64,000 nt of DNA. Source: Ekhidna lutea. Lineage in GTDB: Bacteria; Bacteroidota; Bacteroidia; Cytophagales; Cyclobacteriaceae. The notes beneath the pieces were generated by a model. The model was not told where the DNA came from and searched no databases. It saw only the letters and a program-made list of their open reading frames with translations. Where the stretch lies: the NCBI RefSeq assembly GCF_900188325.1, contig NZ_FZPD01000005.1:186001-250000 (forward strand), given 5' to 3'. This document shows, in pieces, positions 30,784 through 37,377 of the stretch. A program made the position numbers and the translations under genes. Position 1 is the first letter of the stretch. Each line of letters starts with the position of its first letter.

Positions 30784-30857
30784 GCACTCGTAGTTCAACT
30801 GGATAGAATACCAGATTTCGGCTCTGGGGGTTGAGGGTTCGAATCCTTCCGAGTGCA
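30784..30857 (+). tRNA. tRNA-Arg (anticodon TCG)
   Basis: The acceptor arms GCACTCG and CGAGTGC pair perfectly over 7 bases. The anticodon stem CCAGA/TCTGG encloses a 7-base loop TTTCGGC, giving anticodon TCG. The T-arm contains GGTTCGAATCC. The 3' CCA is not encoded, as is usual in this phylum. The last 16 bases of the tRNA and 8 bases beyond are repeated at 31169-31192. Confidence 0.95.
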
Positions 30858-30862
30858 CTTTA

Positions 30863-30895
30863 AGCATCTACCAACAGTAGGTGCTTTTTCTTTTT
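30863..30895 (+). terminator. terminator after tRNA-Arg
   Basis: AGCATCTAC and GTAGGTGCT form a 9-base stem with one mismatch around CAACA, followed by TTTTTCTTTTT. Confidence 0.9.
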
Positions 30896-30929
30896 ACAGT
30901 TAATTAAATCAATACAATGATGTTAGGAA

Positions 30930-31167
30930 GGATGAGAATCTCAGGTTCGAAACCCGAAGGGTTCACGAGGGGAGGAGCGCATAGTTGTGGGTATGAGATA
31001 AATGGAGCGTAGCGAAATTCACAAAAGGAAAAGGCGCATGGTTGTGGGTATGAGATAAATGGAGCATAGCGAAATTCACGAAAGGAAAAGGCGCATGGTT
31101 GTGGGTATGAGATAAATGGAGCATAGCGAAATTCACGAAGGGAAAGGCGCATGGTTGTGGGTATGAG
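30930..31167 (+). repeat. tRNA-linked repeat module, four tandem copies
   Basis: Copy 1 (30930-30997) begins GGATGAGA and ends GTGGGTATGAG. Copies 2 to 4 (30998-31054, 31055-31111, 31112-31167) are 57, 57 and 56 bases long, nearly identical to each other, and are shortened versions of copy 1. All share a CGAA...TTCAC core and end GTGGGTATGAG. Copy 1 contains hairpins TGAG-AAT-CTCA and AACCC-GAA-GGGTT. The same module, as a single copy, follows tRNA-Cys at 37186-37260. Because 57 is divisible by 3, a spurious repetitive frame stays open on the minus strand. Confidence 0.9.
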
Positions 31168-31168
31168 T

Positions 31169-31192
31169 AATCCTTCCGAGTGTACTTTAAGC
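31169..31192 (+). repeat. second copy of the tRNA-Arg 3' end
   Basis: 24 bases match 30842-30865 at 23 positions; the tRNA acceptor has one C-to-T change. It begins at AATCC in the T-arm, directly after the last GGGTATGAGT of the module, and is followed by a terminator. Confidence 0.9.
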
Positions 31193-31211
31193 CTCCTTTT
31201 GGAGGCTTTTT
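31191..31211 (+). terminator. terminator after the duplicated tRNA-Arg end
   Basis: GCCTCC and GGAGGC pair around TTTT and are followed by TTTTT. The stem sequence differs from the terminator of the true tRNA. Confidence 0.88.
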
Positions 31212-31352
31212 ATGCTTTCCTATTCTCGTTACTTGCACCATATACTTCTGAATGGGTAGGAGATCCCCAAGTCTCACTCGTACCTCGTTTGCAAGGGGAT
31301 ACGGACCTTGGAGTTAGATTCATAAATCTTACTGATAGTTTATCTTGAAACA

Positions 31353-36834: not shown

Positions 36835-37083
36835 ATGTTTGAAAACTTGAATTTTGATGAACCTCTTGACGAAAACCGATTTGACCAATGGTTTGATGAG
36901 GGGAGGGAGAGCAAAATTAGATTTGAGTACCTGGTTGTACTATGGGATGAAATGGAAAAGGATTATCGCCCGGTTTTCCTGGCCGAAAGAGCTAAACTTA
37001 AAAAATACGTTGATGACCCAGCTAATGTCGGAGATGTATTTGTTGCGGCCTATGACTTGTATACAGAGTCTAAAGTAATGTAG
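36835..37083 (+). CDS. hypothetical acidic protein, 82 aa
   Basis: The protein is acidic and probably mostly helical (MFENLNFDEPLDENRFDQWF, then FEYLVVLWDEMEKDY). No membrane segment or signal peptide is seen. It is divergent from gapA, and its 3' end abuts a partial copy of the tRNA-linked repeat. I do not recognise a family; base composition is like that of its neighbours, so it looks like a real gene. Confidence 0.6.
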   Translation: MFENLNFDEPLDENRFDQWFDEGRESKIRFEYLVVLWDEMEKDYRPVFLAERAKLKKYVDDPANVGDVFVAAYDLYTESKVM

Positions 37084-37118
37084 GAAGCTTCGAACCTCTG
37101 GATCTCACCATTTCTTAA
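37084..37118 (-). repeat. truncated second module copy downstream of tRNA-Cys
   Basis: Read on the minus strand this begins GTTTAAGAAATGGTGAGATC and then CAGAGGTTCGAAG, an imperfect match to the start of the full module (GGATGAGA...GGTTCGAA). It breaks off at the stop of the convergent gene. Confidence 0.6.
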
Positions 37119-37166
37119 ACAAAAAAAGCAACCCTTTTGAGGTTGCTTGTTAAGAGGCGCTGAGCG
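37119..37166 (-). repeat. second copy of the tRNA-Cys 3' end with its terminator
   Basis: 48 bases are identical to 37271-37318, including the last 11 to 12 bases of the tRNA and the whole terminator hairpin. The period is 152 bases. The copy is interrupted at its tRNA end by the CCTGCC palindrome at 37167-37185. Confidence 0.95.
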
Positions 37167-37185: not shown

Positions 37186-37260
37186 GATTACTCATACCCA
37201 CTACCATACCGCACAACCCCTCGTGAATGCTTCGCATTTCGAACCTTCCGGTTCTCATCC
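37186..37260 (-). repeat. tRNA-linked repeat module, single copy after tRNA-Cys
   Basis: On the minus strand it begins GGATGAGAACC and ends GGGTATGAGTAATC. It shares GGATGAGA, GGTTCGAAA, GAAG, TTCACGAGGGG, GCG and GTGGGTATGAGTAATCC with copy 1 at 30930-30997. It contains hairpins GAACC-GGAA-GGTTC and AATGC-GAA-GCATT. Confidence 0.9.
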
Positions 37261-37270
37261 GCTTATTAAT

Positions 37271-37299
37271 ACAAAAAAAGCAACCCTTTTGAGGTTGCT
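37271..37299 (-). terminator. terminator of tRNA-Cys
   Basis: AGCAACC and GGTTGCT pair across a 7-base loop, followed on the minus strand by TTTTTTTG. An identical terminator lies at 37119-37147. Confidence 0.9.
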
Positions 37300-37306
37300 T
37301 GTTAAG

Positions 37307-37377
37307 AGGCGCTGAGCGGATTCGAACCGCTGTAGAAGGTTTTGCAGACCTCTGCCTAGCCACTCGGCCACAGCGCC
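37307..37377 (-). tRNA. tRNA-Cys (anticodon GCA)
   Basis: The acceptor arms GGCGCTG and CAGCGCC pair perfectly. The anticodon stem GAGGT/ACCTT encloses CTGCAAA, giving GCA. The T-arm contains GCGGTTCGAATCCGC. No CCA is encoded. Its 3' end is duplicated 152 bases downstream. Confidence 0.95.

Follow-up and report, generated by a model that had tools for sequence, protein, structure and literature searches.

The two tRNA loci of the window

The window, a stretch of 64,000 nucleotides of Ekhidna lutea DNA, holds two intact tRNA genes, for tRNA-Arg(tcg) and tRNA-Cys(gca), each followed by a terminator-like stem (T1), a repeat unit, a second copy of the tRNA's own 3' end and a second terminator-like stem (T2). 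We re-read both loci on both strands and confirmed this structure. Both are tRNA-linked repeats (TLRs) related to the RtT sequences of E. coli. The features are listed below; P1 is the closing stem of the unit.

30784..30858, plus strand: tRNA-Arg(tcg), intact host gene (ARAGORN)
30862..30886, plus strand: T1 at Arg, terminator-like stem of 10 pairs, then a T run
30926..30933, plus strand: 5' arm of P1 at Arg, GGAAGGAT, complement of ATCCTTCC in the 3' copy; GAG comes next
30944..30951, plus strand: T-loop half GGTTCGAA ahead of the Arg core
30952-31001, 31002-31058, 31059-31115, 31116-31170, plus strand: four tandem TLR cores at Arg (30952-31170; 50, 57, 57 and 55 bases in order)
31169..31185, plus strand: copy of the tRNA-Arg 3' end, AATCCTTCCGAGTGTAC
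31189..31208, plus strand: T2 at Arg, terminator-like stem, in sequence unlike T1
37306..37377, minus strand: tRNA-Cys(gca), intact host gene (ARAGORN)
37278..37300, minus strand: T1 at Cys, terminator-like stem
37257..37263, minus strand: 5' arm of P1 at Cys, AGCGGAT, complement of ATCCGCT in the native tRNA
37188..37245, minus strand: T-loop half GGTTCGAA (37245-37238) and TLR core (37237-37188) at Cys, ending in GTATGAGTAA
37154..37189, minus strand: copy of the 3' end of tRNA-Cys, interrupted by the palindrome CTGCCTGCGGCAGGCAGG (37184-37167)
37126..37148, minus strand: T2 at Cys, exact copy of the Cys T1
about 37080..37112, minus strand: perhaps the decayed beginning of another unit (AATGGTGAGATCCAGAGGTTCGAAGC), past the second Cys terminator, as judged from the sequence

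The claim of the earlier note that one module lies behind two different tRNA genes is correct according to both ARAGORN and our re-reading, with four cores in tandem at Arg and one at Cys, and the point of the T-loop at which module and tRNA copy join is fixed, as that note also stated. The duplication of the tRNA 3' end is equally real. At Arg the copy, counted from AATCC, agrees with the tRNA in 23 of its 24 bases; at Cys, 48 bases including the terminator are duplicated exactly, the copies starting at 37318 and 37166. The Cys palindrome, 18 bases long, sits after AATCC inside the copied tRNA end and breaks up the pairing of P1 with the copy. The extent first given, 30784-31211, takes in the native tRNA as well; the repeat proper runs from near 30926. 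Between T1 and the Arg module there is one sigma-70-like site, against 1.3 in shuffles.

A 104-aa open reading frame at 30963-31277 on the minus strand is no more than a translation of the tandem core (with FVNFAMLHLSHTHNHAP as its repeating motif), and it should not be annotated as a gene.

Partial tRNA copies elsewhere in the genome

The phenomenon is larger than first described. The end word GTGGGTATGAGTAATCC, with up to 2 mismatches, occurs at 11 places in the 4.23 Mb genome, and the reversed pattern at none. The genome has 33 tRNA genes at the RF00005 threshold (150 of 242 candidates scored; ARAGORN also finds 33 in the stretches taken), and for each of them we searched 900 bases downstream and 600 upstream. 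A partial copy lies downstream of nine: Arg(tcg), Cys, Phe, Gly(tcc), where nearly the whole tRNA is copied in pieces, Asp, Met(cat, L031), Val(gac), Val(tac) and Pro(agg). Upstream of five others, Thr(tgt), Leu(taa), Gln, Glu and Leu(caa), there is a partial 5' copy; two matches between neighbouring Ser and Arg tRNAs (L028) were discounted. The module is present in 5/9 of the downstream loci (Arg, Cys, both Val and Pro), and at Val(gac) AATCC comes after it, the remainder of the tRNA copy being absent. All five module-bearing tRNAs have the T-loop TTCGAATC, which is found in 15 of the 33 overall. One unit, with the ends of Thr(tgt), stands as an orphan about 33 kb away from its tRNA. Some partial copies come without the module, a point against the explanation preferred below.

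Other hairpins, here called 'type 2' inserts, are seen in the T-loops of the copies of Phe (L021), Asp (L024), Pro (L044), Val-gac (L035) and Gly (L023), and also behind Arg(tcg) in two other genomes (L257 in G003, L266 in G006). One example is GTGGRACGCCACTCCGRTCG, shared by copies of Phe, Pro and Arg in three species; at Phe and Asp inserts of this kind are in tandem. The upstream 5' copies (L030 Thr, L032 Leu, L033 Gln, L035 Glu, L042 Leu, and also L230 Val in genome G065) include some with palindromes near the D-loop, e.g. CCTGCCTGCCGGCAGGCAGG or TCCCGATAGCTATCGGGA; G065 has three 5' tRNA copies in tandem.

One could suspect that all this is chance or an assembly artefact, i.e. tRNA-like words that recur and tandem repeats that arise by slippage, since T-arms are near-palindromic (GGTTCGAATCC) and common to many tRNAs. 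Against this stand the absence of the reversed pattern, the recurrence of the arrangement in many assemblies and in E. coli K-12, and the recovery of copies across phyla by the models described below. The suspicion is already contradicted, and we regard its probability as negligible.

Distribution in Cytophagales

The core pattern is found in 6 of 98 relatives, E. lutea itself included: in 4/10 genomes of the genus, 2/50 of other family members and 0/38 from the rest of the order. A GTDB scan returned 47 stretches. The earlier note expected hits to be linked to tRNA genes, and this holds for the 24 of the 47 that end in a T-arm (22 by script, L112 and L114 by eye); it does not hold for the 17 of the 41 core-bearing stretches that have the core away from T-arms, nor for six without the surrounding module (L074, L076, L082, L084, L107, L115), which look like chance matches. 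The names on the 41 core-bearing stretches are mostly Cytophagales, with other titles on L072, L075 and L083. The T-arm hosts of the core include Val, Pro, Ser, Arg, Thr and tmRNA, the tmRNA gene being confirmed by ARAGORN in 5/6 such loci.

Occupancy does vary between species of one genus, as had been expected. Val(tac) is occupied in three of ten genus members, with G002 empty despite a tRNA identical to that of Ekhidna lutea, and Arg(tcg) is occupied in two of the five that share an identical tRNA. Occupancy thus differs, but Val(tac) is occupied in several other assemblies too (L075, L105, L116), and part of the pattern may be inherited; the conditions that the earlier note named as refuting its reading give a mixed result. 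A nearest-neighbour test on 48 cores, from 55 loci of which 7 did not yield to the core pattern and were dropped, detected no signal of spread within a genome or of descent at one tRNA: the nearest neighbour came from the same genome in 3/34 cases and from the same tRNA in 1/26, as in shuffles.

In Ekhidna DT_28 (L056/L101), a tRNA-Pro-like sequence carries inserts in both the D-loop and the T-loop, and the T-loop insert is a TLR core.

Relationship to the tRNA-linked repeats of E. coli

The earlier note knew of no named element that fits. We disagree on this point, since the TLR/RtT repeats of E. coli do fit. These units and those of the window have an order in common: tRNA, spacer, an arm complementary to the 3' end of that tRNA, GGATGAGAA..GGTTCGA..GAGTAATCC, and the same 3' end once more as a copy. 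The repeats behind E. coli K-12 tyrT/tyrV read GGGGAAGGATGAGAAGCTTCGACCAAGGTTCGA...GCGCTGAGTAATCCTTCCCCCACCACC, with the GAG and GAGT marks as in Cytophagales. Egan & Landy 1978, Rudd 1999 and Bosl & Kersten are reportedly earlier sources on the E. coli repeats. In E. coli the knowledge of TLRs goes back to 1978. They are described as 22 genes at ten K-12 loci, whose last 18-19 bp repeat the end of the gene upstream; the set includes RrA/RrB/RrF and the tyrT rtT, and beyond the binding of RrA/B/F to Hfq and CsrA they are stated to have no known function (PMC8144298).

In K-12, 13 of 44 tRNA/5S genes have such a 3' copy within 450 bases (tyrT and eight further stretches), a number that is not a count of TLRs because operon neighbours can share one copy. 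The rtT repeat occurs in 4687 of 5426 E. coli genomes, at 1 to 15 places in each. Like those of E. coli, which lie directly downstream of a tRNA or 5S gene, copy the 3' end of that gene and can be tandem, both window repeats lie directly downstream of a tRNA gene and end as it does, AATCC being separated by the palindrome at Cys. The T1-repeat-T2 layout at rrnB and the end GAGTAATCC/GAGTCATCC are further likenesses, and the lysV/lysQ repeats of E. coli have in common with the tmRNA copy of Fulvivirga (L091) a plain inverted T-arm form, GATTCGAACC, which in K-12 lysV and lysQ reads GATTCGAACCTGCAGCAGG. The differences are that the Cytophagales units belong to another phylum, that their core and hairpins differ (AAYC..GRTT, CACGAGGGG..GCATG..GTATGAGTAA), that they are also found behind tmRNA, and that cores occur outside tRNA loci too.

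Covariance models with rough E-values connect the two groups. R1, built from gammaproteobacterial and E. coli copies, matched the 64-kb window at Cys (E 1.6e-4) and at Arg (E 0.041), and nowhere else at E<=5. On 30 chosen Cytophagales loci, two pairs of identical DNA among them, it gave 33 matches at E<=1 in 24 loci, 25 of them at E<=0.0013. It had no match at the other six (L087, L089, L091, L100, L111, L112), four of which are classed as tmRNA loci by ARAGORN or from their 3' end, and this slightly lowers our confidence in the explanation preferred below. On K-12, R1 found all 10 further copies in 8 stretches at E<=1.1e-4, with one extra match at E 0.7.

In the other direction the Cytophagales model R2 matched each of 12 gammaproteobacterial/E. 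coli sources (16 matches at E<=1.4e-4, 3 weaker), a result that is partly circular because the gammaproteobacterial loci were chosen by a pattern with the shared motifs. E. coli tyrT was not chosen by pattern; its copies match R2 at E 3e-5 to 6e-5, and a fourth copy at 4e-6, with lower scores than the gammaproteobacterial loci. Only one of the 10 other K-12 copies (arg/lys/5S) was found by R2, and weakly (E 0.042). The shared-mark pattern itself occurs at 12 places in 11 of 369 Gammaproteobacteria genomes, and its reverse at none. Eleven of the 12 places lie behind a tRNA with a 3' copy following; the twelfth (L296) is on a short contig without a tRNA, and a tRNA-like end follows it.

The Rfam RtT model, RF00391, was built independently. 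It matches 10/11 gammaproteobacterial loci at E<=1, two of them over the cut-off, and among 14 control genomes only E. coli. In 59 relatives, under stricter filters, 4 genomes give 9 matches at E<=1, none over the cut-off, and each lies behind a tRNA: the Val arrays of G000 and G005 account for five and that of G007 for one, a Thr tRNA for two and a Ser tRNA for one. The Thr array (G005) and the Ser locus (G029) came to light only through this model. The gathering cut-off of 45 bits is not reached by the best match in E. lutea (20.2 bits) or in a relative (30.3 bits), and in a scan of 11 loci of the E. lutea genome only tRNA was above the cut-off, RtT not being among the matches at E<=1. The window repeats are related to RtT and are not filed as members of RF00391.

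RtT has been reported in Proteobacteria (PMC4986893, PMC8092127), in one report as two RtT RNAs beside tRNA genes that gave Northern signals (PMC4986893). Among the matches listed in the literature that we searched, whose scope leaves most subscription journals outside, there was no report of TLRs in Bacteroidota. The kind is already known; what is new is its presence in Bacteroidota and behind tmRNA, the closing arm matched to the tRNA, and the core of about 56 bases standing alone in a CRISPR-type repeat.

The closing arm and the hairpins

The 5' arm of P1 is complementary to the 3' strand of the host tRNA, and at L290, L291, L293 and L295 it is so through T-stem and acceptor. It matches its own tRNA better than other tRNAs. 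Beyond GAT/ATC, 37 arm pairs (one of them an overlapping parse in L288) have on average 3.78 contiguous pairs, against 1.60 when shuffled and a maximum of 2.32 in 2000 shuffles; for Cytophagales alone (n=24) the values are 2.79, 1.66 and 2.58. At some loci the match is poor, e.g. tmRNA L085 and Ser L294.

Gammaproteobacterial copies fold into P1 as closing stem and into hairpins in which changes compensate each other: their alignment (A1) contains 62 double-changed cells against 22.3 when shuffled (0/500), and of five measures one, 'further pair types', is not above shuffles (97/500). The Cytophagales alignment (A2) has P1, P2, P3 and a last hairpin, with 88.4% of cells paired and 25 double changes against 13.0 shuffled; 2/5 covariation measures are not above shuffles there (6 vs 5.3 pairs; 18 vs 17.7 types), and the changes, which are mostly in P1, could reflect how the arm was copied. 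When single sequences were folded, L290 gave z -7.7 with a long closing stem and E. coli z -3.2, and three Cytophagales modules were not clearly better than shuffles (z -1.5, -0.8, -0.6). A hammerhead-like GAUGAG..CGAAA was considered and dropped.

Mobility of the core and the search for a partner

The movement of the core is real, and here the earlier note was right. At L098 copies of the core lie within the last of 53 CRISPR-type repeats, as TGGAA-[core copies]-TTGAAA, the other 52 repeats being intact; this is direct evidence that the core inserts outside tRNAs. The boundaries are AA^T or AA^A: TTCGAA^TC in T-loops, GGAA^TTGAAA in the CRISPR-type repeat, and likewise at other intergenic sites. 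An AA^ boundary can also be seen by eye in many other core copies. A site of E. lutea (C6:240k) and L051 may be an empty and a filled site: they share 91 bp (82%) on the upstream side and, by eye, about 18 bases on the downstream side, a comparison that is suggestive only. In the array at L098:3222-7250, five intervals are about 98 bases longer than the rest and carry TLR-like sequence.

What moves the core is a separate question, and neither a transposase nor a phage partner was found among the Y1_Tnp loci, phage records and IMG/VR patterns searched. Mobilisation of the RAYT/REP type was rejected: the exact core motifs are in 0/16 Y1_Tnp loci from five genomes, four of the loci being from E. 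lutea, and the presence of Y1_Tnp does not track the core, because PF01797 (Y1_Tnp) is found at E<=0.001 in 70/98 relatives and the core pattern in 6/98. E. lutea has several divergent Y1_Tnp (RAYT-like) genes (L205, L213, L218, L222 and others), and the Y1_Tnp genes of several loci across genomes carry, by eye, flanking palindromes of their own. For phages, the E. coli rtT repeat has no BLAST match in 50,697 phage records; it matches 24 plasmid records, some of them chromosome-sized. Phage linkage was rejected as well. One IMG/VR pattern led to a single stretch, which is E. coli rtT, and a looser one to 13, namely E. coli rtT and 12 without a tRNA in the available DNA, 11 of which share one recurring sequence that we take for a viral gene. 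The 74 stretches from another IMG/VR pattern are taken as mostly chance.

These results bear on two alternatives. The first regards the units as selfish and nothing more: a miniature element of the MITE or REP kind, moved by an enzyme acting in trans and without any RNA function, for which T-arms are mere hairpin targets. Insertion in the CRISPR-type repeat and at other sites, tandem copies and variable occupancy all agree with it, and E. coli rtT-like sequences have been linked to BIMEs in a published cluster (PMC2965389); as interspersed palindromic repeats, BIME/REP elements are indeed similar, but no RAYT association was seen in the 16 Y1_Tnp loci. Such an element would also leave the match of the P1 arm to the host tRNA and the compensating changes in gammaproteobacterial hairpins to be accounted for, and the Y1_Tnp results above speak against it as well. 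We consider this alternative possible, though rather doubtful.

The second regards the 3' copies as attachment-site duplications, the scars of islands or phages since almost wholly lost. Partial tRNA copies from integration are common (PMC9897764), integrative elements at T-loops do leave an intact tRNA on one side and a partial copy on the other, and in E. lutea 3' copies are found downstream of the gene and 5' copies upstream of it, with breaks near the anticodon loop in several. But the units measure about 100-380 bases, are in some cases tandem, and in both phyla carry an arm matched to the tRNA and cores that are related to each other; a TLR unit, hundreds of bases at most, has no room for an integrase, and by eye none was seen among the ORFs overlapping 26-42 kb, around both loci. 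The core within the CRISPR-type repeat would remain unexplained, and rtT is without a phage-record match. We therefore consider integration scars improbable. The related suggestion of the earlier note, integration by an integrase acting in trans, finds no support in the Y1-transposase loci or the phage records, and as a whole that note's interpretation is partly supported.

Proposed mechanism

In our opinion the best explanation, which we hold to be probable, is that these are TLRs that make small RNAs by read-through of a terminator, trimmed at the copied tRNA end, while the core moves independently. The RNA unit would consist of the P1 arm, GAG, a hairpin ending in GGUUCGA, a core of further hairpins, GAGUAA, and the tRNA 3' copy from the T-loop on. 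RNA polymerase would read through T1; as laid out at E. coli rrnB, two terminator-like stems bracket each window module. For E. coli RrB, T1 is reported to stop 87% of transcripts, and the copied 5S end has been suggested as an RNase E signal (PMC8144298). By analogy, this model may be carried over to the window loci. P1 would then close into a minihelix resembling the top half of a tRNA, with an enlarged T-loop, and the copied end would be cut as on the tRNA, on the lines proposed for RrB and RNase E. The released small RNA, with T2 as its end, would be present in amounts that track transcription of the tRNA. Arrays would lengthen when the repeated 3' ends and terminators recombine by unequal crossing-over. 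The core can enter new AA^T/AA^A sites independently, be it T-loops, the CRISPR-type repeat, where insertion is shown, or other intergenic sites.

More tentatively, and with less confidence than in this explanation, we can imagine that TLRs are one ancient family of mobile RNA elements that spans the phyla. The closing stem would be rebuilt for each host tRNA, possibly through a hairpin intermediate ended by the tRNA and copied into DNA; T-loops and other AA^ hairpin sites would serve as landing points, and a small-RNA function would be only secondary.

Implications

The TLRs of Bacteroidota provide comparative material for asking which parts of these repeats are constrained, whether the repeats are RNAs or travellers, and how a unit adapts to a new tRNA. 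They also call for caution, since partial tRNA copies are not always the scars of integration.
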